A DNA stretch of 64,000 bases from Pedococcus sp. 5OH_020 (GTDB taxonomy: Bacteria > Actinomycetota > Actinomycetes > Actinomycetales > Dermatophilaceae), in assembly GCF_027812955.1 (NCBI RefSeq), contig NZ_JAPYZV010000003.1:1-64000 (forward strand), given 5' to 3'. This document shows positions 2,275 through 17,631 of this stretch, piece after piece (the stretch's first letter is position 1; the number at the start of each line of letters is the position of its first letter). The notes under the pieces were generated by a model. The model did no database searches. It worked only from the letters and a program-made list of their open reading frames with translations, and had not been told where the DNA came from. The position numbers and the translations under genes were made by a program.

Positions 2275-3312
2275 TTAGACCACTTCTGCAGCACCTGGCC
2301 CACGTCGCGTCGATTCCCCTAGGCGCAGGCTCGGGGTTAGCCGGTTCCTCCGGACCGGGCCGTCCTGGCCTTCGATGCGGGCCACCAAGAACGCGACTGC
2401 ATCGGCTGCGATGGCTTCGACGGGCTGGACCACCGTGGTCAGCGTGGGCCAGACGACATTGGCCAGGTCGCTGCCATCAAAGCCGGTCACCACCACGTCG
2501 TTGGGAACCGCGACCCCACGCTGGCGCAGCTGCCTGAGAACCCCGAACGCAATTGAATCCGAGCCGGTCACAATCGCGTCCGGCAGAGTCTGATGATCCA
2601 GGAGTCTGTCGACAGCGGCGACCCCGGACTCCACGCTGAACTCGCTGCGAAAGTGGCCGGTCACCTCGATCCCAGCGCGAGTCGAGCTGCGTTGGACCGC
2701 GTCCCACCTTTCCACGCCGTTCGAGCTCGCGTCGTCAGATCCCGCGTAGCCGATCGATCGGACACCGATGTCCTTCAAGTGGTCGATGACAAGCCGCATG
2801 CCCGTCTCGTTGTCGACGCCGACGAAGTCGGCGACCGGACTATCGGTGGCTCTGTCGACCTCGACGATCGCCGTGCCACGGGCCACGCGCCTGAGTGCCT
2901 CAGCCGAACCAATGCGGTCTGACGGGATCACCAGAATCCCGTCAACGCGTCGATCACCGAACACCCTGAGGCGACGTACCTCTTCCTCGACGAACCCGTG
3001 CGAGTCCGCCAGGAGCAGTTCGAAACCGGCCCGATTGAGCTGGTCCTCGAGGGCCTCGACGAGCTGGGAGAAGAACGGGATGCCGATGACGGGGACGATC
3101 ATGCCGACGAGACGGGTCGAACCCTGACGCAGGGCTCGGGCGATGGGATCGACTCGGTACCCGAGTTCTTGCGCAACCGATTGCACGCGAGCGATGGTCT
3201 CATTGGAGACCCTTGGCCTGCCAGCCAGAGCGCGCGAAGCGGTTGCCTTCGACACGCCTGCTCTGGCCGCAACATCACTGAGGGTAACGACCGGCTGACC
3301 GGACTCTCTCAC
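2275..3312 (-). CDS. LacI family transcriptional regulator
   Basis: Predicted ligand-responsive repressor of 345 residues. The N-terminal LacI helix-turn-helix reads TLSDVAARAGVSKATASRAL (about residues 10-29), followed by the hinge region. A type I periplasmic-binding-protein-like sensor domain covers about residues 65-335, with the segment GFDGSDLANVVWPTLTTVVQ typical of the family. GTG 3312 is preceded by AAGGGG five bases upstream. It is divergent from the first nucleoside hydrolase gene with a 120-base intergenic region, the classical layout for a local repressor. LacI proteins of this group usually bind sugars or nucleosides, so ribose or a riboside is a plausible effector, but this is inference. 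Confidence 0.93.
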   Translation of the reverse strand: MRESGQPVVTLSDVAARAGVSKATASRALAGRPRVSNETIARVQSVAQELGYRVDPIARALRQGSTRLVGMIVPVIGIPFFSQLVEALEDQLNRAGFELLLADSHGFVEEEVRRLRVFGDRRVDGILVIPSDRIGSAEALRRVARGTAIVEVDRATDSPVADFVGVDNETGMRLVIDHLKDIGVRSIGYAGSDDASSNGVERWDAVQRSSTRAGIEVTGHFRSEFSVESGVAAVDRLLDHQTLPDAIVTGSDSIAFGVLRQLRQRGVAVPNDVVVTGFDGSDLANVVWPTLTTVVQPVEAIAADAVAFLVARIEGQDGPVRRNRLTPSLRLGESTRRGPGAAEVV

Positions 3313-3348
3313 GCGAACCCCTTCACTGGTCCCTGGGTGGGTTTACAT

Positions 3349-3424
3349 CCTATGGACATCCCTATGGACTTCATCGCGCGGCCAGAGTACCTTGTGCGAG
3401 ATCGATTCCGCACTCGTTGCGCAA
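3349..3424. promoter_or_regulatory. Divergent lacI / nucleoside hydrolase control region
   Basis: Two tandem 12-base units, each beginning CCTATGGAC, occupy 3349-3360 and 3361-3372. A perfect 8-base palindrome TTGCGCAA lies at 3417-3424, overlapping the ribosome binding site of the nucleoside hydrolase gene. LacI-family operators usually have a central CG step, so the palindrome is a candidate autoregulatory site. No convincing -10/-35 pair was assigned. Confidence 0.4.
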
Positions 3425-3432
3425 GGAGAAAC

Positions 3433-4377
3433 ATGAGCATTCCGATCATCATCGACTGCGACCCAGGCCATGACGACGTCTTCGCCATCTGGCTGGCCGC
3501 TGGGAACCCGAACATCGATCTGCGAGCGATTACCACGGTGGCCGGGAACGGGCGCATCGAGCACACCACCCACAATGCGCTCGTGGCATGCACGGTCGCC
3601 GGCATCCGTGACGTCCCGGTCGCCCGCGGCGCAAGTGGGCCGCTGAAGGGAGAGCTACGGCCAGCGGAATGGATCCATGGCGCGAACGCACTTGGTGGCC
3701 CGGTCCTTCCCGCGCCGACCATCGAACTCGATGACCGGGACGCGGTCACCTTGATCGCCGACGTCCTCACAGCCTCCGAAGAGCCTGTCGTGTTGGTGCC
3801 CACCGGGCCGCTGACCAACATCGCGCACCTGGTGCAGCGCCATCCGGAGCTCGTGTCCAAGATCGAAGGCCTGATCTGGATGGGAGGCTCGACCGGCCGG
3901 GGAAACGTGTCCCCCTATGCGGAGTTCAACGCATGGGCGGACCCTGAGGCCGCGGACATTGTGCTCCGATCCGGCGTGGATTTCACGATGGTTGGGCTGA
4001 ACATCTCGCACCAGGCACTCATCACCCGTGAGGTGCGGGCCCGCATCGCCGCGCTGGACAGCCCGCTCGCCGCCTTTGGCGTTGAACTTCTCGAGTACTT
4101 CTGTTCTACCTACGAGCAGTTCGAGGGAATGCCCGACGGTCCGCTGCATGACCCCATCACCGTCGCGATGCTGGCGGAGCCATCAGTCGCCACGAGCGTG
4201 CGCACGCGGATCGACGTCGAGTGCGAAGGCACGCAGACCCGGGGGGCGACCTGCGTCGACCTTCTCAACTTCCTCCAGCGGCCGGCCAATGCGACGGTGG
4301 CCCTGGATCTGGACGTCGAACGGTTCTGGTCCCTGATCGAGGATGCCGTGACTGCGCTGGGTCGCGTCTCGGCCTGA
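3433..4377 (+). CDS. Nucleoside hydrolase 1 (IUNH family)
   Basis: Predicted inosine-uridine-preferring N-ribohydrolase that cleaves a ribonucleoside to base plus ribose. Length is 314 residues, normal for the family. The Ca2+ and ribose-binding cluster is DCDPGHDD, with Asp8, Asp10, Asp14 and Asp15. Further hallmarks are VPTGPLTNIA, WMGGS, AEFNAWADPEAA and a C-terminal HDP carrying the His typical of base-leaving-group activation. ATG 3433 is chosen over earlier in-frame codons because AAGGAGAA lies just upstream. It is the first of three non-identical nucleoside hydrolases in this cluster and is divergent from lacI. The exact nucleoside specificity cannot be read from the sequence. Confidence 0.93.
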   Translation: MSIPIIIDCDPGHDDVFAIWLAAGNPNIDLRAITTVAGNGRIEHTTHNALVACTVAGIRDVPVARGASGPLKGELRPAEWIHGANALGGPVLPAPTIELDDRDAVTLIADVLTASEEPVVLVPTGPLTNIAHLVQRHPELVSKIEGLIWMGGSTGRGNVSPYAEFNAWADPEAADIVLRSGVDFTMVGLNISHQALITREVRARIAALDSPLAAFGVELLEYFCSTYEQFEGMPDGPLHDPITVAMLAEPSVATSVRTRIDVECEGTQTRGATCVDLLNFLQRPANATVALDLDVERFWSLIEDAVTALGRVSA

Positions 4378-4476
4378 AGGCCCCAGAGGGCCGTGTGACC
4401 CGTTTGCCGAGTAGCCGCTCCCCTCGTAGCCGGCCAGGAGCGCGCGTCGGGGCAACCGGCGCTGCGCGCCCACCAC

Positions 4477-4575
4477 AGACATCTGATGTCTCGGTGTCCA
4501 CACGTTGAACATCTTCCGAAAGAGTCTTGACCGACGAGACCGCAGACATCTAACGTCTAAGAGTGCAGACGTCTG
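4477..4575. promoter_or_regulatory. Cluster of GntR-type palindromes before gntR2
   Basis: Three related palindromic sequences lie in the 185-base gap before the second gntR gene. AGACATCTGATGTCT (4477-4491) is a perfect odd palindrome, AGACATCTAACGTCT (4544-4558) is imperfect, and CAGACGTCTG (4566-4575) is perfect and overlaps the first codons of the gene. The middle one shares 12 identical consecutive bases with the site at 2250. This arrangement suggests autoregulation by a dimeric GntR protein. Confidence 0.55.
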
Positions 4576-5303
4576 AAGAGTTAACGAAGCAGCGGAGGTA
4601 CCTGGCAGTGGCACAGAACCTGCTTGCAGCCATCAACGATGGCGACTACCTGCCCGGAGCGCGGCTTCCGGCATACGCGGACGTCGCGGCCGAAGCCGGG
4701 GTCTCGAGGGCAACGGCACGGGAGGCGTTTCTCGCTCTTGAGCTCGTCGGTGCCCTCGAGGTGCGCCATGGCGATGGGACTTTTGTCCGGGGCTCGGACA
4801 GCACGACGATGATCGGGCGCGCGGCATCGCTCTTCGCGCCACCGCGAGATCTGGTCGAGGCCCGCCTGCACATCGAGCCCACCGTTGCTGCGCTCGCGGC
4901 GGAGCGCTCCGACGAGGACAGGATCGCCGCACTGCAGCGATACACCGACGAACAGGGAGAGCTGGTCGACCAGCCCGACCAGCTCACCCGCTTTGTCGCG
5001 CTGGGCTTGGAGTTCCACGCAGACCTCGCGCCCGGCTGCGGCAACGTGCTCCTGGCGGACATCGTGTGCCAGCTCGTGAACGTCGAGCGCCACCCGCTGT
5101 GGGCACTGGTGAACCAGTACGCAGCTCCTGACCTCGCGTCCCGCCAACGCCAAGTGGATGAGCACGGGGCCATCGTGAGAGCCCTGGGGCAGCGACGTCC
5201 CCAAGAGGTGTCGGCCCTCATGCAGCGGCACATCGGTTCACTGGCGCGGGCCGTGTTCGAAGGATCTGGGTTGCACCACACCATGGAAGGCGTCCGGCCA
5301 TGA
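4563..5303 (+). CDS. GntR family regulator 2, FadR/FCD type
   Basis: Transcription factor of 246 residues, paralogous to the GntR protein at 274-1011. The winged-helix segment (about residues 8-78) contains VSRATAREAFLALELVGALE and RHGDGTFVRG; the helical FCD ligand domain follows. GTG 4563 is assigned because it gives an N-terminus like the paralogue's (QRRYLAVAQ). No strong Shine-Dalgarno sequence precedes it, so the message may be nearly leaderless. It heads the main catabolic operon: its stop overlaps the hydantoinase start (ATGA). Palindromes at 4477-4575 are probably its own operator. The effector is unknown but likely a pathway intermediate. Confidence 0.9.
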   Translation: MQTSEELTKQRRYLAVAQNLLAAINDGDYLPGARLPAYADVAAEAGVSRATAREAFLALELVGALEVRHGDGTFVRGSDSTTMIGRAASLFAPPRDLVEARLHIEPTVAALAAERSDEDRIAALQRYTDEQGELVDQPDQLTRFVALGLEFHADLAPGCGNVLLADIVCQLVNVERHPLWALVNQYAAPDLASRQRQVDEHGAIVRALGQRRPQEVSALMQRHIGSLARAVFEGSGLHHTMEGVRP

Positions 5304-6739
5304 GCGTGCCTGGGCAGGCGGACCTCGTCGTCCATGGCGGAACGGTCGTCAATGCCACAGGCAGCCGGGCTGCGACTGTCCTCATCGCCGGTGGCCGCAT
5401 CACCGCACTGCTGGATGCGAACAGCCCACTGCCGAGCCACGCAAGGGCCATCGACGCGACTGGCCAACTCGTGATCCCCGGGGGCGTCGACCCACACTGC
5501 CACGTCGGCCAGAGGCTCGGCGATGTGTCCATGCTCGATGACCACGAGCAGGCCAGCATCGCAGCCTTGTGGGGCGGCACCACGACGATCATCGACTTCG
5601 CCATCCCGGAGCCGGGTCAAACGCCTCTGGAGGCGGCCCATACGCGGCTTAAGCAGGCCGGCGCGGCACGGTGCGACACCGCCCTGCACGGCGGAGTCGT
5701 CGCTTGGGACCACAGCACGCGAGGCCAGCTTTTCGCCATGGCGGACCTGGGCGTCCGGACCACCAAGCTGTTCACCACCTACCGCGACGGCGTCATGGCG
5801 GACACCGAAACCATCCGTGCCGTCATGGCGACGACCGAAGAGCTCGGCGGCGTGACGTTGATCCATGCCGAGCAGAACCACATCATCGAGACGCATCAGA
5901 AGGACGCGGCAGCCGCAGGGCACCGGCACTCGCGCTTCATGGCCAGCATGCGGCCCGAACAGGCCGAGCTCGAGTCCGTCAAGCAGGTGCTGACCATAGC
6001 CGAGCAGGAGCAAGCCAGCGTCTACTTCGTCCACCAAACCACCGCCGACGTTGTCGACCTCGTCCGGCAGGCGCGCGCTCGTGGGGTGCGGGTCTACTCC
6101 GAAACCTGCCCGCACTATCTCGTACTGGACGACTCCCTGTACGAAAAGCAGCATCCAGAGCGTTACGTCTGCTGCCCGCCCTTGCGGTCGACTGCCACAC
6201 GCGACGACCTGCGGGCCGTGGTTCTCCAGGGACACGTGGACACCATTGGCTCGGACCACTGCTGCTACTCCACAGTCCAGAAGAGCGCTCACGCCGACGA
6301 CGCCGTGAACGTACCCAACGGCCTACCTGGCGTCGAGACCCGCCTGACCGTGACCTTCGACTCGTTGGTCTCCTCGCAACAGATGGCCGTCGAGGACTTC
6401 GTCGCCCTCACCTCAACCAATCCAGCGCGACTGAACGGCCTGCGGGGCAAGGGCTACATAGCCCCTGGCGCCGATGCGGACCTCGTGGTCTTCGACCCAC
6501 ACCAGCGGCGAGCCGTCACCACCAGCGACCTGCACATGGCCACGGATTACACCCCCTACGAGGGTCACTCCTTCACCGGGTGGCCGACCACTGTCATCGC
6601 CGGAGGACGGGTCGTGGTGGACCCCGACGGGTTCCATGACCCCGGCCCCATCGGCCGGCACCTGCGCGCACAGTCACAGCTCGATGGCCACCGTCATCTC
6701 ATGACTTCCCTCGTGCGCGACGCCACGCAGCGCCCCTGA
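5300..6739 (+). CDS. Dihydropyrimidinase / D-hydantoinase family amidohydrolase
   Basis: Predicted binuclear-metal cyclic amidohydrolase that opens cyclic ureides such as hydantoins or dihydropyrimidines. At 479 residues it has family length. All expected metal ligands are visible: His66 and His68 (DPHCH), carboxylated Lys156 (TTKLF), His189 (LIHAE), His245 (VHQT) and Asp319 (GSDH). It overlaps the gntR2 stop by 4 bases and is followed 23 bases later by a nucleoside hydrolase gene. Inference from that context: after the riboside is cleaved, this enzyme opens the released ring, or a reduced or oxidised form of it. The allantoinase at 47420 is a separate relative with its own operon. Substrate cannot be decided from sequence. 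Confidence 0.88.
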   Translation: MSVPGQADLVVHGGTVVNATGSRAATVLIAGGRITALLDANSPLPSHARAIDATGQLVIPGGVDPHCHVGQRLGDVSMLDDHEQASIAALWGGTTTIIDFAIPEPGQTPLEAAHTRLKQAGAARCDTALHGGVVAWDHSTRGQLFAMADLGVRTTKLFTTYRDGVMADTETIRAVMATTEELGGVTLIHAEQNHIIETHQKDAAAAGHRHSRFMASMRPEQAELESVKQVLTIAEQEQASVYFVHQTTADVVDLVRQARARGVRVYSETCPHYLVLDDSLYEKQHPERYVCCPPLRSTATRDDLRAVVLQGHVDTIGSDHCCYSTVQKSAHADDAVNVPNGLPGVETRLTVTFDSLVSSQQMAVEDFVALTSTNPARLNGLRGKGYIAPGADADLVVFDPHQRRAVTTSDLHMATDYTPYEGHSFTGWPTTVIAGGRVVVDPDGFHDPGPIGRHLRAQSQLDGHRHLMTSLVRDATQRP

Positions 6740-6762
6740 CCGCCAAGCAAGGAGACACCTTC

Positions 6763-7746
6763 ATGACCCGACAGCTGATCCTCGACGTCGACACCGGGAC
6801 GGACGATGCCATTGCCATCATGATGGCCGGTCTCTCCAAGGACCTGGACCTCCTCGGCTGCACAACTGTGTGGGGCAACCACGCGGTTCCCGTGTGCACC
6901 GCAAACACGCTGGCCGTTCTGGACCTGATCGGCCGACAGGACGTTCCCGTCCACCAAGGACTCGGCAAGCCGTTCGCTCCGATCCCCTTCCTGTTCGCCG
7001 ACCACGTCGACAGCGAGCGCGAAATCGTTCACCCGGCCAGCTTCCCCATTCAGCCGAGCACCCGTGAAATCGCCCGGCAGCCCGCGGTGGAGTGGCTCGT
7101 CGAGACCCTTCGATCGGCGACCGAGCAGATCACCCTGGTCCCGGTCGCGCCGCTGACGAACATTGCCGCCGCCGTTACGATCGACCCCAAGATCGTCGAG
7201 GCTGTCGACGAGGTCGTGATCATGGGCGGCAGCCACGCCCTCGGCAATGTCACCCCCTCGGCCGAGGCAAACATCTGGCACGACCCGGTGGCGGCCGACG
7301 TTGTGTTCCGGGCTGGTTTCGAGCGACTGGTCCTTGTCCCGCTGGACGCCACCCACCGTGCCAACGTCACGGCTGCGCAGAACGAGGCGCTACGCGGACT
7401 GGGCACACCAGCCGGGACCGCTGCAGCCGCGCTCATCGGGCAGCGCATCGAGGGCTACACCCAGACCCAGCCCCAGCAGATGCCAGACGTCGCCCCTGTG
7501 CACGACGCCCTGTGCGTTGCCTACCTACTCGACCCCTCAGTCATCCCCTTAAGGGCGTACCACGTGCAGATCGAGACGACCGGTTTCGCGTCCTTCGGAC
7601 GCACGATCGTCGACACAGCGGCCCGCAGCGGGCAGACACCGAACGCCCTTGTGGCGCTCGACGCCGACGCCGACCTGTTCTACAAGCTTCTCAACACCAC
7701 CCTCGCCGGGCCCGCACACATCCAGGACCCGCAATCACCGGCCTAG
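6763..7746 (+). CDS. Nucleoside hydrolase 2 (IUNH family, divergent)
   Basis: Second N-ribohydrolase-like protein, 327 residues. The metal and ribose cluster is DVDTGTDD with Asp8, Asp10, Asp14 and Asp15. MGGSHALGNVTPSAEANIWH replaces the usual AEFN motif (Phe to Ala), and VHDALCVAYLLDP carries the C-terminal His-Asp pair. The catalytic scaffold is intact but the substrate pocket differs from its two paralogues, so a different base or sugar preference is likely. ATG 6763 follows AAGGAG. It sits between the hydantoinase and the ABC importer binding-protein gene. Confidence 0.9.
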   Translation: MTRQLILDVDTGTDDAIAIMMAGLSKDLDLLGCTTVWGNHAVPVCTANTLAVLDLIGRQDVPVHQGLGKPFAPIPFLFADHVDSEREIVHPASFPIQPSTREIARQPAVEWLVETLRSATEQITLVPVAPLTNIAAAVTIDPKIVEAVDEVVIMGGSHALGNVTPSAEANIWHDPVAADVVFRAGFERLVLVPLDATHRANVTAAQNEALRGLGTPAGTAAAALIGQRIEGYTQTQPQQMPDVAPVHDALCVAYLLDPSVIPLRAYHVQIETTGFASFGRTIVDTAARSGQTPNALVALDADADLFYKLLNTTLAGPAHIQDPQSPA

Positions 7747-7803
7747 GCCACAAACCACTGCCGTCACAAGTACGGCGCAGTACAACCGAGCAAGGAGCCA
7801 GCA

Positions 7804-9168
7804 ATGAGCAACATCGGAACAGTACGCGGCAAGTCGCGCACGCGACTTGTCATGGCGTCGGCGGTCGCGCTCAGCGCCGCCATGGCCGCCGCCGGGTGTA
7901 GCAGCAAGGAGGACGTGGGTGCCAAAACGGCCGACTGTCCCCAAGGCGTCACCACCCTCAAGGTGCTGCGCGCCGAGCACCAGGTGCCGAACGACCAGCA
8001 ACTCGACGACTACTCCAAGTCGGTCAAGGGCTGCGTGAAGTTCAGCGTCCAGGACATCCCCTTCGGCCAGCTGGCCGACAAGATCAGCGTCCTGGCGCCC
8101 ACCAACAACTCCCCGGACATCGTCGGATACGACAGCCCGAACACGGCCGACTACGCGTCGAAGGGTGTGCTCCTGCCACTGGACTCGTATCTGCCGAGCG
8201 GGTGGAAGCACGACGTCCTTCCCGCCACGCTGAAAGAGCAGTCATTCAAGGACAAGGTGTACTCCCTGGGCGTCCAGCAGGACGTCCTCACCATGTACTT
8301 CAACAAGACACTCACCGATGCGGCCGGGATCAGGGTGCCGACCAGCATCGACCAGGCGTGGACGTGGCAGCAGGCGCACGAGGCGATGCTCAAGTGTCAG
8401 AAGGGCACCCCGGGCAACCCCTCCATCTACGGGCTGGCTCCGACGCAGCTCGGTGACGGGACGCCAGGGACCGTGTATGGCGACCTGGTGATGATCCGCA
8501 GCGCCGGTGACCCCAAGGCTGACCCGAACTCCTCGGCCTACAAGACGTTCTACGCGATCTCGCCCGACGGAAAAAACGTGGACGGGTGGCTGAACACGCC
8601 AGAGGCGGTCCAGGCAGGCAAGTTCTACCAGTCCCTCTTCAACGGCAAGACCGCCGTATCGTCCAAGACCGGTCGACCCAACGCGTTCATCGACGGCAAG
8701 GCGTGCTTCGACATCTTCGTCGGCGAGCAGGCGCTGAACCTGAAGAAGGCCAACGTCTCGTTCAAGTGGGGCAACGCGCCCATGCCGTACATCAAGACCC
8801 CGATCGTCCAGACGGGCGCCTTGACGGTGGGGGTCATGGCCAAGACCAAGCACCGGGATGCTGCCGCCAAGTTCGTCGTGGGTATCTCCACCCCCCCGCA
8901 GGTCGCCAAGTACAACGAGTCCGCCATCCGGATGCCCACGCTGCAGTCGGTGTACGACTCGCTGCCGAGGTTCCATGAAGCCCCGTTCGACATGGAGTAC
9001 GACGAGCTGCTCAAGTGGGGCCAGCCACGACCCCTCACGACCGCCTTCAGCCAGTACAGCAACATCGTCTCCAAGGCACTGAAGGACATCGCCTACGGCT
9101 CGGACCCGAAGTCTCGCCTGGACCAGGCCGTCAGCCAGCTCCAGCCCATCGTGACCAACGCGAAGTAG
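7804..9168 (+). CDS. ABC importer substrate-binding lipoprotein (family 1)
   Basis: Predicted extracytoplasmic solute-binding protein of a carbohydrate-type (CUT1) ABC importer, 454 residues. The N-terminus has basic residues, a hydrophobic stretch (about 15-30) and a lipobox ending at Cys32 (AAAGC), so it should be lipid-anchored outside the membrane. The rest is a typical type-1 solute-binding fold with central VYSLGVQQDVLTMYFNK and later FIDGKACFDIF segments. RBS AAGGAG precedes ATG 7804. Permease genes follow at once. The system belongs to the sugar or glycerol-phosphate binding-protein class, not the BmpA class usual for nucleosides, although all its neighbours act on nucleosides. Confidence 0.92.
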   Translation: MSNIGTVRGKSRTRLVMASAVALSAAMAAAGCSSKEDVGAKTADCPQGVTTLKVLRAEHQVPNDQQLDDYSKSVKGCVKFSVQDIPFGQLADKISVLAPTNNSPDIVGYDSPNTADYASKGVLLPLDSYLPSGWKHDVLPATLKEQSFKDKVYSLGVQQDVLTMYFNKTLTDAAGIRVPTSIDQAWTWQQAHEAMLKCQKGTPGNPSIYGLAPTQLGDGTPGTVYGDLVMIRSAGDPKADPNSSAYKTFYAISPDGKNVDGWLNTPEAVQAGKFYQSLFNGKTAVSSKTGRPNAFIDGKACFDIFVGEQALNLKKANVSFKWGNAPMPYIKTPIVQTGALTVGVMAKTKHRDAAAKFVVGISTPPQVAKYNESAIRMPTLQSVYDSLPRFHEAPFDMEYDELLKWGQPRPLTTAFSQYSNIVSKALKDIAYGSDPKSRLDQAVSQLQPIVTNAK

Positions 9169-9184
9169 AGGCAAAGGACCGACG

Positions 9185-10120
9185 ATGTCAACCAAAGCGG
9201 AACCCGTGCCGGGGCGGCGCGCCAAGCGCTTCGCCCCGGCGGGGGGAGGCCGCGCGCGACAGGATCTCCTGGCGGCGGCGGCCTTCCTCGGACCGTTCAT
9301 CATCCTCGCCCTGATCTTCCAGTACGGCCCGCTGCTGCTCATGGTCAAGGACAGCTTCTACGACTACACCCTGATCACGCCGGACCTGAAGACGTTCGTG
9401 GGCTTCGACAACTTCGTTCGCATCTTCACCGACCAGGGAACCGTGAAGTCGCTGATCATCACGCTGCTGCTGTCGGTGGGTGTGGTCATCCTGACGATTC
9501 CGCTGGCCTTCCTCTTGGCCATGTTCCTGAACGGCAAGTTGCCAGCTCGCGGGTTCGTGCGGACCATGGTCTTCCTTCCCGTGATCACCTCCTCTGTGGT
9601 CGTCGCGACGCTGTGGACGTTCCTGCTCAACGCCAACGGGCTGATCAACTCCGCCTTGGGCTCCGTGGGCATCTCGCAGCAGCCGTTCCTCACCAGCGGC
9701 ACGCAGGCGTTGCCAGCCATCATCGTGCTGACCGTGTGGCAACAGCTCGGGATGGCCACGGTGCTCTACCTCGGCGGCCTGCAGTCCCTGCCATCAGAGT
9801 TGATGGAGGCCGCCACCATCGACGGCGCCAGTCCTCGACAGCGGTTCCGCTACATCACCATCCCGCTGATGTCGCGAACCACCGTGCTGGTCGTCGTGGT
9901 CATCACGGTCTTCGCACTGCAGTCCTTCGCACCCGCCTACATCATGACCGGCGGCGCCCCCAACGGAACCACCAACACGTTGGTGTACCTGATCTACCAG
10001 ACCGCCTTCACCCTCCAGCAGCCCGGATACGCATCGGCGATCTCCCTGCTGCTACTGGTCATCGCATTGGCCATCAGCTTGGTGCAGATGCGACTGCTCC
10101 GCACCCGATGGGACTACTGA
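9185..10120 (+). CDS. ABC importer permease 1 (MalF/UgpA type)
   Basis: Inner-membrane permease of the CUT1 importer, 311 residues with about six hydrophobic segments between residues 25 and 305. The EAA loop that contacts the ATPase is visible as MEAATIDGASPRQRFRYITI. A short basic N-terminus precedes the first segment. It starts 17 bases after the binding-protein gene and ends 2 bases before the second permease, so the three are one operon. It should form a heterodimer with the next product. No ATP-binding subunit is encoded nearby, so a shared MsmK-type ATPase elsewhere is expected. Confidence 0.92.
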   Translation: MSTKAEPVPGRRAKRFAPAGGGRARQDLLAAAAFLGPFIILALIFQYGPLLLMVKDSFYDYTLITPDLKTFVGFDNFVRIFTDQGTVKSLIITLLLSVGVVILTIPLAFLLAMFLNGKLPARGFVRTMVFLPVITSSVVVATLWTFLLNANGLINSALGSVGISQQPFLTSGTQALPAIIVLTVWQQLGMATVLYLGGLQSLPSELMEAATIDGASPRQRFRYITIPLMSRTTVLVVVVITVFALQSFAPAYIMTGGAPNGTTNTLVYLIYQTAFTLQQPGYASAISLLLLVIALAISLVQMRLLRTRWDY

Positions 10121-10121: not shown

Positions 10122-11039
10122 ATGACTGTCTCGACGGCACGACCCTCTTCGGCGCAGACCTCAACCGGTGCGCCCCTACCAGCCGGAGCGCCGCAACGGC
10201 GGGTGCGGCAAGTCGGACGCATCCTGACCACGCTGCTGATCCTCGCGGTCATCGTCGCTGCGTTCCTGGGACCGTACGTGTGGATGTTCGCATCCGGGCT
10301 CAAGACCCAGGCCAGCATCTTCACGGACGTGGTTCCCATCAGCTGGAGGACGTTCATCCCCGTCCACGCGACCATCGACAACGTCACGGAGCTCTTCGCA
10401 GACCGAGGGATAGGCCGTGCGCTGCTCAACTCCGCCCTCGTGGCCGTTGGCCAAGTGCTCGGCGCCCTCGCCGTGTGCTGCCCGGCGGCCTACGCGCTGA
10501 CGCGAATCAAGTTCCCCGGCCGGAACGTGATCTTCGCCTTCATCCTGGCGACGTTCATGCTGCCGTCGGAGGCGTTGGCCGTGCCGCTGTTCCAGCTGGT
10601 CGGCACTCTGGGGCTTCAGGACACCCTTGTCGGCGTCGGCATCCCGTGGATCGCGAACGCCTTCGGGTTGTTCCTGCTCCGTCAGGCGTTCGAGGGTGTC
10701 CCGCATGAACTTGACGAGGCAGCCCGACTGGATGGGGCCGGCCACTTGCGCATCTTCTGGTCCGTCATCCTGCCCAACATCCGCGCTGACCTGGTCACGT
10801 TCGTCCTGACCATCTTCCTGTTCTCCTGGAACGGCTTCCTGTGGCCCCTGATCGCGATCCAGACACCGGAGAAGCAGCTCGTCCAGGTGGCCATCGCCCA
10901 GTCGGTGTCCCCGGGGGAGCTGCCCAACTGGGGGCTCAGCTTCGCGGGCGCATCGATCGCCACGATCCCGCTGCTCGTGCTGTTCGTCTTCCTGCAGCGA
11001 CTGCTCATCCCGGGGCTCGCCCGGTCGGGCCTCAAGTAG
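10122..11039 (+). CDS. ABC importer permease 2 (MalG/UgpE type)
   Basis: Second transmembrane subunit of the CUT1 importer, 305 residues. A proline- and alanine-rich cytoplasmic N-terminus of about 30 residues is followed by six predicted membrane segments. The EAA motif reads LDEAARLDGAGHLRIFWSVI. ATG 10122 lies one base after the stop of permease 1, implying translational coupling. The operon continues after 52 bases with the third nucleoside hydrolase, preceded by its own AAGGAG. Confidence 0.92.
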   Translation: MTVSTARPSSAQTSTGAPLPAGAPQRRVRQVGRILTTLLILAVIVAAFLGPYVWMFASGLKTQASIFTDVVPISWRTFIPVHATIDNVTELFADRGIGRALLNSALVAVGQVLGALAVCCPAAYALTRIKFPGRNVIFAFILATFMLPSEALAVPLFQLVGTLGLQDTLVGVGIPWIANAFGLFLLRQAFEGVPHELDEAARLDGAGHLRIFWSVILPNIRADLVTFVLTIFLFSWNGFLWPLIAIQTPEKQLVQVAIAQSVSPGELPNWGLSFAGASIATIPLLVLFVFLQRLLIPGLARSGLK

Positions 11040-11091: not shown

Positions 11092-12069
11092 ATGCCTCGC
11101 AAGATCATCCTCGACGTCGACCCGGGCCACGATGACGCCATCGCGATCGTCCTGGCCGAAGGCAACCCGGAGATCGACCTCGTCGCGATCACCAGCGTCG
11201 CCGGCAACCAGACCCTGCCCAAGGTGACCTACAACGCGATGCGTGTGGCCACTCTGGTGGGTTCGCAGGCCACCATCGCCCGCGGCGCCGAGTTCCCCTT
11301 GATGCGCAAGCAGCTGACCGACCACGACATCATCGCCGGAAGCGTGCACGGCGTCTCAGGACTGGACGGGCCCGTCCTGCCGGAGCCCAGCATGGAGCTG
11401 GATCCCCGGCACGCGGCCCAGCTGATCGTGGACGTCGTGATGGAACACGAGCCGCAGGAGATCACCCTCGTGCCGACCGGGCCACTGACCAACATCGCGT
11501 TGGCCATGCGGCTCGAGCCGAAGATCGTCGAGCGCGTTCGCGGGGTGGTGCTCATGGGCGGTGGTTACACACAAGGCAACGCCACGCCGGCCGCCGAGTT
11601 CAACATCCTCGCGGACCCGGAGGCTGCCGCGGCAGTGTTCGCTGCCGAGTGGCAGGTCACCATGGTGGGACTCGACCTGACGCACCAGGCGGTTGCCACG
11701 CCCGAGGTGAAGGAGCGCATCCGGGCCATCGGAACGCCCTTGTCGCAGACCGTGGCCGAGTGGCTTGACTTCTTCGGTGGCACCTACAGCTCGGTGTGGA
11801 AGATGCCGTACCCGCCGATCCACGACGCCTGCGCCGTTGCCCGGGTGATCAACCCCGACGTCGTCCACGTGGAGGAAGCGTTCGTCGTCGTGGAAACGCA
11901 GGGAAAGTGGACCTACGGGGAGACAGTCACCGACTTCCTCGGCGCCTTCGGCGAACCGTTCAACAACCTGGTGGCGACGAAGCTCCACTTCGAAGGCTTC
12001 TGGGACCTCATCGTCGACGCGATCACCCGGATCGGTGAGCGCCAGGCACAGCAGTCCACCAGCGCCTGA
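11092..12069 (+). CDS. Nucleoside hydrolase 3 (RihA/RihC-like)
   Basis: Third N-ribohydrolase of the cluster, 325 residues, and closest to the standard pattern. It has DVDPGHDD with Asp8, Asp10, Asp14 and Asp15, then VPTGPLTNIALAM, MGGGYTQGNATPAAEFN, LADPEAA and PIHDACAVA with the catalytic-type His. ATG 11092 follows GAAGGAG. Location directly downstream of the importer makes it the best candidate to act on the imported solute. It is more similar in motifs to hydrolase 1 than to hydrolase 2. Confidence 0.93.
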   Translation: MPRKIILDVDPGHDDAIAIVLAEGNPEIDLVAITSVAGNQTLPKVTYNAMRVATLVGSQATIARGAEFPLMRKQLTDHDIIAGSVHGVSGLDGPVLPEPSMELDPRHAAQLIVDVVMEHEPQEITLVPTGPLTNIALAMRLEPKIVERVRGVVLMGGGYTQGNATPAAEFNILADPEAAAAVFAAEWQVTMVGLDLTHQAVATPEVKERIRAIGTPLSQTVAEWLDFFGGTYSSVWKMPYPPIHDACAVARVINPDVVHVEEAFVVVETQGKWTYGETVTDFLGAFGEPFNNLVATKLHFEGFWDLIVDAITRIGERQAQQSTSA

Positions 12070-12114: not shown

Positions 12115-12900
12115 ATGCGACTGACGGGCCGCACCGCCGTGGTTACCGGTGCAGCATCCGGAATCGGCCGCGCCATCGCCATACGGCTCGCCGCCGAGGG
12201 TGCATCCGTGGTGGTCAGTGATATCCGGACCGACCCCATCTGGGACGGGTTGAACACTGAACCCACGACCGACGTGATCGTCTCCGCTGGCGGCACCGCC
12301 ATCTTCCACAAGGCCGACGTCTCCGTCACGGACGACGTGCACTCCCTCATCCAGCGGGTCGTCCAGGAGTACGGACGCCTCGACATCATGATCAACAACG
12401 CTGGGCTCGTCGGGTCACACAACATCCTGGAGACGACCGAGGGTGAGTGGGACCGTCTCATGTCGGTCAACCTTCGCGGCCAGTTCCTGTGCTGCAAGGC
12501 AGCCATCACGCAAATGGTCACACAGGAACCGGTAGTGGAGATCCGAGGTCGGGTCATCAACGTCTCCTCCCAACAAGGCTTCATCGGCCCGCCCGACTAC
12601 TTCGCGTACGCCGTCAGCAAAGGCGGAGTCGTGCAGATGACCCGGCAGCTGTCCACCGACTACGCCCGGCACGGCATCCTGGTCAACGGCCTGGCGCCCG
12701 GCCGCATCATCACCGGAACCCATCCGGGCGAGATCGACATGACCGACCCGGTCCTGACGTACTCCCGAGCCCGGACCCCGTACCCCCGTCTGGGGCGTGC
12801 CGACGACGTCGCGGGGGCCGCCTTGTTCCTCTCGAGTGACGACTGCACCTTCATCTCCGGACACACCCTGCCGGTCGATGGCGGATGGCTGGCCTACTGA
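12115..12900 (+). CDS. Short-chain dehydrogenase/reductase 1
   Basis: NAD(P)-dependent oxidoreductase of the classical SDR family, 261 residues. The dinucleotide motif TGAASGIG is at residues 11-18, NNAG in the middle, Ser in NVSSQQG, and the catalytic YxxxK as YAVSK. The C-terminal segment FISGHTLPVDGGW is typical. Its stop overlaps the start of the next gene (TGATG), indicating translational coupling with the PuuE-like enzyme. The substrate is unknown; a sugar, polyol or hydroxy-acid intermediate is plausible. Confidence 0.88.
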   Translation: MRLTGRTAVVTGAASGIGRAIAIRLAAEGASVVVSDIRTDPIWDGLNTEPTTDVIVSAGGTAIFHKADVSVTDDVHSLIQRVVQEYGRLDIMINNAGLVGSHNILETTEGEWDRLMSVNLRGQFLCCKAAITQMVTQEPVVEIRGRVINVSSQQGFIGPPDYFAYAVSKGGVVQMTRQLSTDYARHGILVNGLAPGRIITGTHPGEIDMTDPVLTYSRARTPYPRLGRADDVAGAALFLSSDDCTFISGHTLPVDGGWLAY

Positions 12901-13871
12901 TGTCGACATCGATCAACCGACCAGCTCAGGACGTGCTCCCTGGACCGGTCCGGGACCTGGTGGGCTACGGCTCCCTCGTGCCGCAGGTCACCTGGCCGCA
13001 CCAGGCCAACGTGGCCGTCAACATCGTCGTCAACTACGAGGAGGGCTCGGAGTACTCGTACGCCATGGGTGACCGGGAGAACGACATCCTCGGCGACTCC
13101 GCCTACCGCTTTCCCCCCGAGGTGCGCGACCTGGCCCAGGAGTCCATGTACGAGTACGGAAGTCGAGTCGGTGTGTGGCGGCTGCTGAGGCTTTTCGACG
13201 AGTACGACATCCCCTGCACCTTCTTCGGTTGCGCAGTGGCGTTCGAGGCGAACCCTGTAGTGGCCCGCGTCGCCAGTGCTCGCGGCCACGACCTCGTGTC
13301 GCACGGGTGGAGATGGGAGGAGCACTGGCGCCTCAGTGAAGAGGAGGAGCGGCGGCACATCGCCTTGGCCGTGCAGTCCTTCGAACGCACTTGGGGCAAG
13401 CGACCGGTCGGCTGGTACTGTCGATATGGCCCGTCGGTCAACACCCGCCGCCTCGTGGTCGAGGAAGGTGGATTCCAGTTCGACTGCGACGCCTACAACG
13501 ACGACCTGCCCTACTTCACCGCAGTGGGCGAAACGCAGCACCTGGTCGTTCCATACTCCCAGACCTACAACGACTCGCAGGGATCGAAGAACCCGACTGA
13601 GTTTCTCGACTACATCAAGCGGGCGTTCGACGAGCTGTGGCTCGAGGGAGAGCGGGGCACGCCGAAGATGATGTCGGTCGGCCTGCATCCGCGCCTCGTT
13701 GGTCAGGCAGCGCGCGTCTCGGCGTTGCGTGAGTTCCTCGAGCACGCGCAGTCCCGGGGGAAGGTCTGGTTCGCGCGTCGCGGAGACATCGCGCAGTGGT
13801 GGCTGGCTCATCATCAGGACTTTCCACTCGTCGACGGTTCGCGGTACGGACATGCCCACCTCGACGGCTGA
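12900..13871 (+). CDS. PuuE-like polysaccharide-deacetylase-fold amidohydrolase
   Basis: Predicted C-N hydrolase of the polysaccharide deacetylase superfamily, 323 residues. Segments match the pattern of PuuE, the cofactor-independent allantoinase described in Pseudomonas: NYEEGSEYSYAMGD (about residues 45-58), SMYEYGSRVGVWRLLRLF, HGWRWEEHW, RPVGWYCRYGPSVNTRRLV and DDLPYF. It could open allantoin or another cyclic ureide. ATG 12900 overlaps the SDR stop and is favoured over a codon 15 bases upstream. The gene overlaps the start of the next gene by 20 bases. A normal metal-dependent allantoinase is encoded at 47420, so this enzyme is either redundant or acts on a different ring; the nucleoside context favours the latter. 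Confidence 0.82.
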   Translation: MSTSINRPAQDVLPGPVRDLVGYGSLVPQVTWPHQANVAVNIVVNYEEGSEYSYAMGDRENDILGDSAYRFPPEVRDLAQESMYEYGSRVGVWRLLRLFDEYDIPCTFFGCAVAFEANPVVARVASARGHDLVSHGWRWEEHWRLSEEEERRHIALAVQSFERTWGKRPVGWYCRYGPSVNTRRLVVEEGGFQFDCDAYNDDLPYFTAVGETQHLVVPYSQTYNDSQGSKNPTEFLDYIKRAFDELWLEGERGTPKMMSVGLHPRLVGQAARVSALREFLEHAQSRGKVWFARRGDIAQWWLAHHQDFPLVDGSRYGHAHLDG

Positions 13872-14979
13872 GCCCTGCGGCGTCCAGGACCTGACTCAAC
13901 GCTGGGAACGGCTCTGGACCGGCATGGAGCAGGCCGCTCTGGACGTCCTGCTGGTCCACGGGACAGGTGCCTTGGGTCAATACGGGAACCTCGTGTACGT
14001 CCTCGGCAGTCACCTACCGACCAAGGGGGCGTATGCGGTGCTGCGTCGTGGCGCGCCGCCGGTTCTCGTGGCATCGTCCGCAGTTGAGGGCCGTGCGCTG
14101 ATGCGCGCGTTCTCCTGGGACGTGCAGGTGGTGGCCCCCGTCCACTCCGGCCGGGCACAGCAGCTCGCACAGGTGGCAGAGCTCTGCGGCGGCTATGGTG
14201 CAGCCGCCTTGGCAGGACCATCACACGTGCCGCACGGTGACGCCCTGATCCTGCACATGCTGCTGGAACACACGTTGCCCGTGGTGGACCTCGTCAGCGA
14301 GGCACGTCGGGCACTGGCGCAATGGGACCAGGACCTGATGCGGGCAGAAGCGACCACCATCGAGCAGACCTTCCAGTCGCTGCCCGCGCTCGTGCGTCCC
14401 AAGGACACCGAGCGTGACCTGGCCGCCGCCATCGAGAGCCAGCTCGTGCGTCGAGGCTCACGCGTTCGGATCGTGCACGTCAGCGCTGGTCACTTCCACG
14501 GCCAGCCACCTTCGGACTCCGTCCTCAGGGCCGGGGCCATGGTCACCATCTTCATCGAGAGCGCCGGCGCCACAGGCCACTGGGTGGAGCTGGGTGTGAT
14601 CGCCCACGTCGGTACCCCCGGGCCCACGCAGCGCCACCAGACCGAGCTGCTTCAAGCCGCCCTGAGAACCTTTCCGCACCAGCTGATGCCCGGGCGTGAC
14701 ATCGCCGCCATCGTCACGGCTAGGACCCGCGTGGTGTCCGAACGCGATGCAGCAACCATCGGACTTGGCCACGGAACGGGCGTGGACGAACAACCGTGGC
14801 AGCTGGGCGGCGAGGTGGTCGGGTCGTTGCGCGCGGGGGAGGCCGTTGCCGTGCACCCCTCGCTGGAGTTCTCGGACGGCACCGCTGCTGCGGTGGCCAA
14901 CACGTTCCTCGTCGGCCCGGCGCCGGCCGAACCGCTGTCCCAGTTGCCCTTCACAACCCTGACCCTGCCGCCCCTTTAG
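13852..14979 (+). CDS. M24/creatinase-fold protein without metal ligands
   Basis: Protein of 375 residues with the two-domain layout of creatinase/prolidase (M24): an N-terminal creatinase-type domain (about 1-165) and a C-terminal pita-bread domain. The conserved second-domain motif region reads GLGHGTGVDEQPW, keeping a His. The usual metal ligands are not recognisable: the segment that normally holds two aspartates reads IFIESAGATGHWVELG, and the C-terminal Glu position lies in HPSLEFSDGTA. Creatinase itself is metal-free and hydrolyses a C-N bond, so a C-N hydrolase role fits better than a peptidase. ATG 13852, inside the end of the previous gene, is chosen because upstream in-frame codons are buried in that gene. 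Confidence 0.75.
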   Translation: MPTSTAEPCGVQDLTQRWERLWTGMEQAALDVLLVHGTGALGQYGNLVYVLGSHLPTKGAYAVLRRGAPPVLVASSAVEGRALMRAFSWDVQVVAPVHSGRAQQLAQVAELCGGYGAAALAGPSHVPHGDALILHMLLEHTLPVVDLVSEARRALAQWDQDLMRAEATTIEQTFQSLPALVRPKDTERDLAAAIESQLVRRGSRVRIVHVSAGHFHGQPPSDSVLRAGAMVTIFIESAGATGHWVELGVIAHVGTPGPTQRHQTELLQAALRTFPHQLMPGRDIAAIVTARTRVVSERDAATIGLGHGTGVDEQPWQLGGEVVGSLRAGEAVAVHPSLEFSDGTAAAVANTFLVGPAPAEPLSQLPFTTLTLPPL

Positions 14980-15003
14980 CCACTCAGTACCGAGGAAGCC
15001 ATC

Positions 15004-15771
15004 GTGAACACACGACGTACCGCCGTTGTCACCGGTGCCGCCAGCGGCATCGGTGCACAGCTCGCCATCGCCTACGCCCAAAGCGGCGTCAACGTCGTCG
15101 TGGGCACGTACCCGGCCGACCCCCACGATCCAGAGGAGGTGCTCGACCAGGTGCGGCAGGCCGGAGGCGACGCGGTCGTTCACGAGGTCGACGTCCGCGA
15201 CCCCAACCAGGTTGACCGGTTCGTCCAGCGGGCGGTCGACCAATGGGGTCGCCTCGACTTCGTCGTGGCCAACGCCGGCGTGGTTCGGCTGCATCCGCTG
15301 GCGGACCTGACGGACGACGCTTGGGACGACCTGATGTCGGTGGACCTCACCGGCGTGATGCGGGTGTTCCGCAGCGGTGTGATGCGCATCAGCGGGCACG
15401 GGGCGCTCGTTGCGGTGTCCTCCATCTCCGGCGGGGTCTACGGATGGCCGAACCACGCGCACTACACGGCGGCAAAGGCCGGTGTGCTCGGGCTGTGCAG
15501 AGCCCTGGCGGTCGAGTTGGCCCCGCGCGGCATTCGCGTCAACTCCGTCATCCCCGGAGTGATCGACACGGCGCAAACCCAGGACTCAGTGAACTCCTTC
15601 GGCCGGTCCGGCCTCGACCAGGCTGGAGCGAGGATTCCGCTCGGACGGGTCGGCCGACCCGAAGAGGTTGCCCGCACCATCCGCTTCCTCACCAGTGACG
15701 ACGCGTCCTACATCACCGGCCAGCAGATCGTCGTCGACGGCGGCCTGACCGTCTTCATGCCCATCTCATGA
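15004..15771 (+). CDS. Short-chain dehydrogenase/reductase 2
   Basis: Second classical SDR, 255 residues. It has TGAASGIG at residues 10-17, ANAG, catalytic Ser in VAVSSISG and YTAAK as the YxxxK motif, ending with [15 protein letters not shown] 15004 is preceded by GAGGAAGCC. The stop overlaps the ribokinase start by 4 bases (ATGA). Sequence is clearly different from SDR 1, so two separate oxidation or reduction steps are likely. The substrate is not evident. Confidence 0.88.
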
Positions 15772-16679
15772 GCAGCGTCATTGTCTTCGGGTCGATCAAT
15801 GCGGACATGGTGGTCCGTGTGCCCGTGACCCCGCGCCCCGGGGAGACGTTGATGGGCCGCGACGTCAGCTACGTGTCAGGCGGCAAGGGCGCCAACCAGG
15901 CGGTCGCGGCCGCGCGCATGGGGGCAGCCGTCGCCATGATCGGCGCCGTTGGTAGCGACGACAACGGTCAGCGCCAAATCGACAACCTGGCGGCCAACGG
16001 CGTCGACGTCTCCATGGTGACCCAGGAATGCCCCTCCACGGGCCTCGCAGTGGTGACGGTCACCGACGTCGGCGAGAACTCGATCGTCGTCGTGCCCGGC
16101 GCCAACCACGCGGTAGGCACCAAGCATGTCTCCGCCATGGCCGAGAAGGTGCGACGAGGTGACCTGGTCGTGACCCAGCTCGAGCTGCCGCAGCCAGTCG
16201 TGGCCGACGCCCTGCGGGCGGCGCAGGCAAGGGGTGCCCGCACCGTCCTCAACGCAGCGCCCATGGGGGACCTGTCCGACCTTCTGGACGCGGTCGACGT
16301 CCTGGTTGTCAACGAGACCGAGGCGCAGTCTCTTGGCCACCAGAGGCAGCTGCGCCCAGACGAGCCAGCGTCCATGGCGGAGCAGCTGGCCCAGGAGCTC
16401 GCCGTGATCATCGTCATGACCCTCGGGGCCGAGGGCGCCGTCATCGCCCATCCTGGCGGGCGACGGTGGCGGGTGCCCGGGGACAACGTCGTGGCTGTCG
16501 ACACAACGGGTGCCGGTGACACGTTCGTGGGGGCACTGTGCGCAGCGCTGGCCGCGGGCCGCGACGAGACCAGTGCTCTCGAGCAGGCCAACCATGCCGC
16601 CGCACTCGCGTGCACGGCTGCGGGCGCCCAGTCGGCCATGCCCCGCCTCGCAGACGTCACCCCACCCCACGCCCCCTAG
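15768..16679 (+). CDS. rbsK: Ribokinase
   Basis: Predicted PfkB-family ribokinase, which phosphorylates ribose to ribose 5-phosphate for the pentose phosphate pathway. Length is 303 residues. Visible motifs are [11 protein letters not shown] near the N-terminus, the substrate signature [16 protein letters not shown] (about residues 41-56), NAAP, and the catalytic and anion-hole motif [13 protein letters not shown]. It is the clearest functional link in the operon: ribose freed by the nucleoside hydrolases needs this step. Other PfkB sugar kinases cannot be fully excluded. Confidence 0.9.
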
Positions 16680-16695
16680 ACGGAAAGGCCGAACC

Positions 16696-17631
16696 GTGCC
16701 CACCGCGTGGCTCCCTTACAACGATCCCCAAGAAGCGCTGCGCCTAGTCGGACCACCCCCGCCGGGCATCACCATCGACCTCTACCACGGTGGCCCCTAC
16801 CCGCAGTCCATCGACGTCGTCACGTTCTACGTCCTGCCGTACATGAGCGGCCCGGAGGTGCTCGCGCCCTGTGCAAACATGCCCAAGCTCGCGGCCGTGC
16901 AGACCCTCACCGCCGGGTACGAACAGTTCCTGCCCCACCTGCCGGCCGGCGTCACACTCTGCAACGCAGCCGGTGTGCACGACGCGAGCACAGCCGAGCT
17001 GGCTGTCGGCCTCATCCTGGCCCGCGGCCGCGAGCTGGACCACCACGCGAGGAACCAGTCAGCCAGAACTTGGAGCCCGGGTTTCGGAACCTCGTTGGCA
17101 GACCGAAGGGTGCTGATCATCGGGTACGGAAATGTCGGTCGCGCGATCGAGCAGCGGCTTCAAGGCTTCGAACCGGCCTCCATCACCAGGGTCGCCCGCA
17201 CCGCACGGTCCGGGCCGCCGCACGTGCACGCCATCAGCGAGCTGCACGAGCTGCTCCCGACGGCCGACGTCGCCATCGTCATCGCGCCGCACACCCCCGA
17301 AACCGAGGGGCTCATCTCCTCACGCGAGCTCGCCCTGCTGCCCGACGGTGCCCTCTTGGTCAATGTTGCCCGCGGCAGGCTGGTTGACACGCAGGCGTTG
17401 GTCAGCGAGCTGGAGAAGGGACGGCTCAGCGCAGCGGTCGACGTCGTGGAGCCAGAACCGCTTCCTGAGGATCATCCGCTGTGGACAGCGCCGAACATCC
17501 TGATCACACCCCACGTCGGTGGGATGAGCTCGGCATTCGCCCCCCGCGCCGGCAGGCTGATCGCCCAGCAGCTGGAGCGCTTAAGCCAAGGCCGTCCGCT
17601 GGAGAACGTCGTGGTTGAGGCCACGTCATGA
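16696..17631 (+). CDS. D-isomer 2-hydroxyacid dehydrogenase
   Basis: NAD(P)-dependent D-2-hydroxyacid dehydrogenase, 311 residues. The Rossmann motif GYGNVGRAIE is in the middle, then NVARGRLVDTQAL carries the substrate-binding Arg, VVEPEPLPEDHPLW carries the Glu and TPHVGG carries the catalytic His. GTG 16696 is selected because it follows AAAGGCC and starts the conserved fold; earlier in-frame codons lie inside ribokinase. It may reduce or oxidise a small 2-oxoacid such as glyoxylate or hydroxypyruvate, which would connect to the glycerate kinase of this cluster. That link is inference. It is the last gene before the long gene-poor stretch. Confidence 0.88.
   Translation: MPTAWLPYNDPQEALRLVGPPPPGITIDLYHGGPYPQSIDVVTFYVLPYMSGPEVLAPCANMPKLAAVQTLTAGYEQFLPHLPAGVTLCNAAGVHDASTAELAVGLILARGRELDHHARNQSARTWSPGFGTSLADRRVLIIGYGNVGRAIEQRLQGFEPASITRVARTARSGPPHVHAISELHELLPTADVAIVIAPHTPETEGLISSRELALLPDGALLVNVARGRLVDTQALVSELEKGRLSAAVDVVEPEPLPEDHPLWTAPNILITPHVGGMSSAFAPRAGRLIAQQLERLSQGRPLENVVVEATS

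Follow-up and report, generated by a model that had tools for sequence, protein, structure and literature searches.

What would an actinobacterium degrade with nucleoside hydrolases, a hydantoinase-type enzyme, a PuuE-like cyclic amidase and a creatinase-fold protein encoded side by side? The question is raised by Pedococcus sp. 5OH_020, in which 13 forward-strand genes form an operon at positions 4563-17631 of contig NZ_JAPYZV010000003.1. We analysed the first 64,000 nucleotides of this contig, hereafter the window, which starts at the contig end in a genome of 4.43 Mb. A preliminary description had proposed that the cluster imports a ribosylated, possibly modified or oxidised base, removes the ribose and opens the ring stepwise. 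We assign a probability of about one half to a general scheme of this type, in which a riboside would be taken up, its base opened, and urea released together with an oxoacid that is converted to glycerate; we infer the reactions, their order and the substrate alike. The substrate would be a cyclic ureide that is already oxidised and carries a ribose, with an oxidised pyrimidine nucleoside as the likeliest case.

Every family named in the preliminary description was recovered in Pfam and NCBIfam scans, with curated NCBIfam cut-offs as thresholds, and the three IUNH-type hydrolases placed at 3433, 6763 and 11092 (NH1, NH2 and NH3) all carry the IU_nuc_hydro domain (Table 1). The operon runs from the regulator GntR2 through HydA, NH2, a solute-binding protein, two permeases, NH3, the short-chain dehydrogenase (SDR) SDR1, the PuuE-like protein, the M24 protein and SDR2 to ribokinase and a D-2-hydroxyacid dehydrogenase; by their coordinates, several genes overlap and the widest gap is 57 bp.

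To find relatives, an NH2 alignment was scanned against GTDB contigs. At least 594 stretches matched, giving 564 relatives, and the best 80 of these 564 plus two plasmid loci (L063 and L064) make up the 82 NH2 loci considered here. The order GntR-HydA-NH2-SBP-permeases-NH3-SDR1-PuuE-M24-SDR2, where SBP is the solute-binding protein, recurs in four of them (L065-L068: Arthrobacter sp. B6, plasmid pE5100 of Pseudarthrobacter sp. NamE5, Arthrobacter sp. Bi83 and Pseudarthrobacter sp. GA104). In these four the dehydrogenase is divergent upstream and ribokinase is always present, lying downstream except in L067, where it is upstream on the opposite strand; three have a glycerate kinase (43-46% identity). 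Identity to the window is 56-81% over ten genes and lower for ribokinase (40-44%), M24 (32-37%) and the dehydrogenase (30-35%). The co-conservation in other actinobacteria for which the preliminary description had called thus exists, although it emerged only when searching from NH2, and because the gene order recurs, the cluster is more than a chance association. NH1 and the LacI regulator are found in none of the four syntenic loci, which limits the operon proper to 4563-17631; the cluster as first drawn keeps this part and loses LacI (2275-3312) and NH1. The LacI-NH1 pair (2275-4377) resembles UriR-UriH, yet both proteins score under the respective cut-offs (169 against 550 and 308 against 450 bits).

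Upstream, glycerate kinase and GntR1 lie on the minus strand. The 12-mer CATCTAACGTCT matches the genome exactly at just two sites, one ahead of each transcript; with one mismatch allowed, three further copies appear elsewhere. Since the 12-mer precedes both transcripts, glycerate kinase is, on this sequence evidence, very likely co-regulated with the operon, and glycerate would therefore be expected as a product. The kinase had been counted as a cluster member although it lies at 1025-2191, before the cluster as first drawn (2275-17631); the shared operator joins the GlxK-GntR1 pair (274-2191) to the operon. GntR1 and GntR2 (274-1011 and 4563-5303) are opposed paralogues with 61% identity, which accounts for inverted repeats of 208 and 220 bp (73-74%). 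The palindrome AGACATCTGATGTCT ahead of the operon is the sole exact copy in the genome; with three mismatches, three sites were found in the window against 1.66 expected, which is not above chance, and only exact copies are relied on here.

In NH2 and NH3 the IU_nuc_hydro domain spans the whole length and carries the DxDxGxDD motif (DVDTGTDD and DVDPGHDD, respectively). None of the three hydrolases reaches the cut-off of the UriH model NF052221 (450 bits; NH1 308, NH2 222, NH3 379). The closest PDB relative of NH2 is YeiK, at 177 bits, and NH3 scores 330 bits against 1mas. By sequence, NH2 may be a specialised and NH3 a general ribose-removing hydrolase. The adjacent CUT1 importer (7804-11039) consists of an SBP_bac_1 binding protein and two BPD_transp_1 permeases, and the operon has no gene for an importer ATPase.

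The nature of the imported ligand can be approached through the distant relatives. BMP-family proteins bind nucleosides, and in Agrobacterium, Mesorhizobium and Martelella (L063, L064, L111, L138) the NH2 relatives adjoin BMP-family ATP-binding cassette (ABC) importers. The nucleoside reading is strengthened because these replace the CUT1 importer beside NH2. The same substitution speaks against another N-glycoside or a sugar-ureide conjugate as substrate, in which case the hydrolases would have come to act on a different glycosyl amide and the sugar part would be oxidised by the SDRs. Such a conjugate would suit a CUT1-type binding protein with sugar-binding PDB relatives, the divergence of NH2 (177 bits to its nearest PDB hydrolase, against 330 for NH3) and the epimerase/SDR pairs found alongside HydA in several versions; with a conventional NH3 and with ribokinase belonging to the set, we consider it very improbable.

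The PuuE-like protein belongs to a subfamily of its own. It scores under the allantoinase equivalog threshold of TIGR03212 (424.6 bits), as does its Klebsiella sister (347.2 bits), and a Methylobacterium PuuE encoded beside uraH, puuD and uraD, used as positive control, reached 500.4 bits. Its loop is GWYCRYGPSVNTR (CRYGPS), where the allantoinase counterpart is TGRDSP, and the GWYTGRxxPNTR-type loop of the P. fluorescens structure and of urate-context PuuE is not present in it. Among 22 aligned PuuE sequences (26 were tried, and four without an open reading frame were left out), 13 have CRY[GA]xS, six have TGR and three have neither (L030, L034, L177). Within the 82 NH2 loci, a CRY-loop PuuE occurs in six, four of them close relatives, and HydA is present in all six; a TGR-loop PuuE occurs in seven, all Pseudovibrio, and HydA in none of these; one further PuuE match (L112) is of neither type. 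Judged by score and loop, the window protein is not a canonical allantoinase. In one genome (G235, L031:3039-11132), a CRY-loop PuuE comes after a BMP-type importer and an adenine-deaminase-like protein, both read by eye.

These data also bear on whether the operon serves ordinary nucleoside catabolism, freeing plain uracil or purine bases, with HydA as a normal dihydropyrimidinase and the PuuE-like protein as an allantoinase paralogue for the urate pathway. NH3 is indeed close to IU/CU-type hydrolases, HydA falls just short of the D-hydantoinase/dihydropyrimidinase threshold (by only 7 bits) and a urate pathway is encoded in the same window. On the other hand, the families identified in the cluster include neither a dihydropyrimidine dehydrogenase nor a beta-ureidopropionase, a canonical allantoinase, AllB, is already encoded in the window, and the PuuE-like subfamily, with its own loop and its score under the allantoinase cut-off, accompanies HydA rather than urate genes in every NH2 locus having the CRY type. 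We thus regard ordinary catabolism as unlikely.

The M24 protein has altered metal-site positions. Canonical M24 metallopeptidases use D, D, H, E and E as metal ligands; the columns that we equated with them by eye hold E236, E246, H307, H335 and A349/N350, invariant in five aligned relatives, so the canonical set is absent. It has no NCBIfam match, is 12-23% identical to the creatinase-fold proteins creatinase, DoeA, DddP and prolidase, and in its predicted structure (predicted local distance difference test, pLDDT, 71.5; predicted template modelling score, pTM, 0.64) creatinase and prolidase entries score equally. From gene lists, M24 appears to stand where a ureidoglycolate-lyase-like (AllA-like) protein stands elsewhere. 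Because the AllA-like protein fills this place in the proteobacterial versions, urea release is a better guess for M24 than a third ring opening.

Distant versions show how the modules recombine. Near NH2, the Agrobacterium vitis plasmid (L063) encodes a BMP-family ABC importer, NH3, HydA, ribokinase, an SDR, an epimerase-like oxidoreductase, and a styrene-monooxygenase-like flavoenzyme with a flavin reductase; L138 differs little from this set. Mesorhizobium huakuii (L064) combines a BMP importer with HydA, PuuE-like and AllA-like proteins, a hydroxyacid dehydrogenase, an SDR and an epimerase; a urea carboxylase considered beside its NH2 was dismissed, the carbamoyl-phosphate synthase there being an ordinary CarB. 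Martelella (L111) has a PuuE-like protein, a ureidoglycolate-lyase family protein (Pfam 79 bits), a BMP importer and HydA. Plasmid versions of Klebsiella michiganensis, Variovorax, Rhizobium ruizarguesonis and Salipiger carry no annotated nucleoside hydrolase within the stretch retrieved, and the hydrolases therefore look like an add-on feeding a base-opening module, as far as gene content can tell. The Klebsiella plasmid carries GntR, HydA, PuuE-like and AllA-like proteins, a peptide-type ABC importer, an epimerase-like protein, an SDR and a D-2-hydroxyacid dehydrogenase, an enzyme also present in L064.

The fate of the opened base was weighed between a three-carbon and a two-carbon product. 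In Salinibacterium sp. NG253 (L069), a HydA-like protein, NH2 and the same importer precede a hydroxypyruvate-isomerase-like protein (230 bits against a cut-off of 353) and a tartronate-semialdehyde reductase (347 bits against 340.75), and urease (1012 bits) is encoded further on. The genome of this organism (completeness not given) has a glycerate kinase (316 bits), and no glyoxylate carboligase (Gcl) above the cut-off of 711 bits was found in it (best 396 bits). With the reductase and urease present and no carboligase found, a three-carbon product is favoured: glyoxylate is no easy source of glycerate here, and the evidence points towards urea plus a skeleton of three carbons, as expected from a pyrimidine-type ring bearing an oxygen at C5. 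The first gene of this locus (L069:7711-8538, 275 aa) had no Pfam, NCBIfam or PDB match. Carboligases above the cut-off were likewise not found in Naasia (best 378 bits) and Martelella (342 bits), and the Amycolatopsis match (704 bits) contains one internal stop. The Naasia locus (L079) has a hydantoinase above its cut-off (424 against 393 bits), a carbamoylase-type CN hydrolase and a class IV aminotransferase.

The two-carbon alternative starts from a hydantoin base, such as 5-hydroxyhydantoin, or from another ureide riboside: the PuuE-like enzyme would make ureidoglycolate, M24 or an AllA-like lyase would free glyoxylate and urea, and the dehydrogenase or Gcl-GlxR-GlxK would consume the glyoxylate. 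It agrees with the adjacency of PuuE-like and AllA-like proteins in five loci (L064, L111, Klebsiella, Salipiger, Variovorax), with Salipiger, where an importer, these two and GntR stand alone side by side, and with Gcl in the genomes of the window and of the four syntenic loci. Salinibacterium, Naasia and Martelella, without a Gcl above the cut-off, argue the other way, as does the Rhizobium thiamine pyrophosphate (TPP) enzyme, which scores only 185 bits against 791 as glyoxylate carboligase, and the dedicated, co-regulated glycerate kinase suits a three-carbon product better. A two-carbon product thus seems to us rather unlikely. This enzyme, encoded within the Rhizobium version of the module (L182:12875-14566), matches PRK06154 (941 bits, cut-off 607) and is annotated only as a thiamine pyrophosphate-requiring protein.

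In the favoured three-carbon scheme, the CUT1-type importer would take up an oxidised-ring riboside, NH2 and NH3 would hydrolyse the N-ribosyl bond, and ribokinase would make ribose-5-phosphate. A ureido hydroxy- or oxo-acid would result when HydA and the PuuE-like enzyme open the ring, and the SDRs would adjust the redox state of a ring hydroxyl. M24 would then free urea and leave hydroxypyruvate or tartronate semialdehyde, which the hydroxyacid dehydrogenase (best NCBIfam model 174.9 bits, cut-off 400) would reduce to glycerate, and glycerate kinase would send this into glycolysis. We prefer an oxidised pyrimidine because the balance of 5-hydroxyuracil is exact (C4H4N2O3 + 2 H2O = urea + C3H4O4); that the base is 5-hydroxyuracil itself or uracil glycol is a tentative proposal with the odds against it. 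Three other substrates were set aside: allantoin, because the families found include no allantoicase or allantoate amidohydrolase; dihydrouridine, because they include no ureidopropionase; and pseudouridine, a C-glycoside that, from what is known of the family, N-ribohydrolases do not cut.

Several observations weigh against the riboside scheme. The solute-binding protein has, by sequence, only sugar-binding-type PDB relatives, at 50 bits or less. No HydA match lies near NH2 in 70 of the 82 loci, and Amycolatopsis sp. GM8 (L078) has only GntR, NH2, the importer, NH3 and ribokinase (64-84% identical), with no ring-opening genes nearby, so that deribosylation is separable. In Aminobacter, a CRY-loop PuuE adjoins a gene annotated as urate hydroxylase PuuD. 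The cluster itself encodes no ring-oxidising enzyme. As for the end product, the hydroxypyruvate-isomerase-like protein of L069 is under its cut-off (the Hyi-like protein of the window's own purine pathway scores 261 bits), and L069 has no PuuE-like, NH3, ribokinase or M24 match, so that the end-product argument is borrowed from a partly different gene set. Finally, with carboligases in the four Arthrobacter-type genomes (1100-1108 bits) and in that of the window, a two-carbon route is open to them.

Every part of the operon comes from a known family or is a diverged member of one, and the combination is a modular nucleoside/ureide catabolic operon. With the aerobic urate-allantoin-glyoxylate-glycerate pathway it shares PuuE-type ring opening, the AllA-like step (in sister clusters) and a terminal glycerate kinase; unlike that pathway, it has no uricase or xanthine dehydrogenase, its PuuE-like and AllA-like proteins are under the equivalog cut-offs, and it adds nucleoside hydrolases, ribokinase, HydA and SDRs. 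The standard purine pathway looks complete elsewhere in the window (36811-57880), with canonical uricase, AllB, XdhB and Gcl all above their cut-offs, which bears out the distinction drawn in the preliminary description. RihABC and the Corynebacterium UriR-UriH system share IU_nuc_hydro enzymes, ribokinase and a LacI-type regulator (here beside NH1), whereas the conserved operon is GntR-regulated and, with two hydrolases unlike each other, continues to base opening; NH1 and LacI, which are most like UriH/UriR, lie outside it. PydABC and the hydantoin operons (HyuA/HyuC, hydantoin racemase) share a HydA-type amidohydrolase, and some sister clusters have racemase and carbamoylase; the families identified in the present operon include neither a dihydropyrimidine dehydrogenase nor a carbamoylase. 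From the creatinase/M24 fold, the window protein departs in identity and metal-site positions, as described above. A literature search with most subscription journals and all preprints outside its reach gave no account of the gene set, in line with the earlier impression that no described pathway matches it, and the part of PMC4016543 available to us, which covers ureidoglycine carbamoyltransferase, makes no link to it.

A close NH2 (1e-40) was found in none of 10 congeners, M24 in the window's genome only among 394 genomes of the class, and no M24 match in plasmids; among 12 actinobacterial PuuE-like neighbourhoods fetched, a single one other than the window (G028, L030) has both PuuE and HydA by tblastn. 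The GC content is 64.7-66.9% over the first 16 kb and 67.5-73.5% beyond. From the GC step, the missing NH2 in congeners and the rarity of M24, we infer that this operon of a soil-type bacterium was horizontally acquired. A tRNA-Pro (18248-18322) lies 0.6 kb past the operon, its 3' end towards it, and a 28-bp stretch between the two (17727-17754; one copy in the genome) resembles, by eye, the 3' end of a tRNA; this region is a possible island boundary. Rfam on positions 1-20000 gave the tRNA alone above its gathering score, and a chrB-a match was discarded (25.8 bits, gathering score 43.9).

Table 1. Features of the operon, its surroundings and the separate purine pathway in the window.
Feature	Position	Strand	Evidence and remarks
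GntR/FCD regulator 1 (GntR1)	274..1011	-	family scan; 61% identity with regulator 2; on the strand of glycerate kinase, 13 bp after it
Glycerate kinase (GlxK type)	1025..2191	-	TIGR00045 303.5 bits, cut-off 168.45
Operator CATCTAACGTCT, copy 1	2250..2261		59 bp before glycerate kinase start
LacI regulator	2275..3312	-	neighbour, outside conserved set; UriR model 169 bits, cut-off 550
Nucleoside hydrolase NH1, UriH/RihA-like	3433..4377	+	IU_nuc_hydro 320 bits; neighbour, outside conserved set
Perfect palindrome AGACATCTGATGTCT	4477..4491		ahead of operon
Operator CATCTAACGTCT, copy 2	4547..4558		directly before GntR2
GntR/FCD regulator 2 (GntR2), first gene of operon	4563..5303	+	family scan; GntR 56-59% identical in four Arthrobacter-type loci
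HydA, hydantoinase/dihydropyrimidinase-type cyclic amidohydrolase	5300..6739	+	TIGR02033 386.1 bits, cut-off 393.25
Nucleoside hydrolase NH2, divergent clade	6763..7746	+	IU_nuc_hydro 255 bits
Solute-binding lipoprotein, CUT1-type importer	7804..9168	+	family scan; 43-79% identical in 11 other loci
Importer permease A	9185..10120	+	family scan
Importer permease B	10122..11039	+	family scan
Nucleoside hydrolase NH3	11092..12069	+	IU_nuc_hydro 310 bits; close to characterised IU/CU-type enzymes
Short-chain dehydrogenase SDR1	12115..12900	+	family scan
PuuE-like cyclic amidase, CRYGPS-loop subfamily	12885..13871	+	TIGR03212 321.1 bits; loop motif
M24/creatinase-fold protein, altered metal-site positions, proposed urea-releasing	start near 13852, to 14979	+	Pfam 46.4 bits
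Short-chain dehydrogenase SDR2	15004..15771	+	family scan
Ribokinase	15768..16679	+	TIGR02152 288.2 bits, cut-off 299.65
D-2-hydroxyacid dehydrogenase, proposed hydroxypyruvate/glyoxylate reductase	start near 16693, to 17631	+	Pfam 2-Hacid_dh_C 157 bits
Uricase	37650..38720		354 bits, above cut-off
Gcl	43585..45342		1162 bits, above cut-off
AllB	within 36811..57880		562 bits, cut-off 358
XdhB xanthine dehydrogenase	within 36811..57880		937 bits, above cut-off
Xanthine permease	within 36811..57880
Hyi-like protein	within 36811..57880
Tartronate-semialdehyde reductase	within 36811..57880		371 bits
Second glycerate kinase	within 36811..57880		382 bits

It is conceivable, if doubtful, that the operon belongs to a widespread mobile 'shadow allantoin pathway' recycling oxidatively damaged or hydroxylated pyrimidine ribosides, in which nucleoside hydrolases would remove the ribose, and HydA and a neofunctionalised PuuE would open the ring. 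Its substrates would be 5-hydroxyuridine, uridine glycol or the matching hydantoin riboside; a creatinase-fold enzyme or an AllA-like lyase would split the product into urea and hydroxypyruvate or tartronate semialdehyde, and glycerate would follow. In the Agrobacterium version, the styrene-monooxygenase-like flavoenzyme would oxidise the ring first.

To our knowledge, little is known of how modified or oxidised nucleosides are broken down in soil, pseudouridine excepted. If true, the proposed scheme would give such nucleosides a fate in soil. It would also provide a testable function for misannotated families, namely CRY-loop PuuE (annotated as allantoinase), AllA-like proteins (as ureidoglycolate lyase), NH2 and M24. 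Moreover, the modular recombination, in which hydrolases are added while the importer and the putative urea-releasing enzyme are exchanged, allows the substrate to be triangulated across versions.

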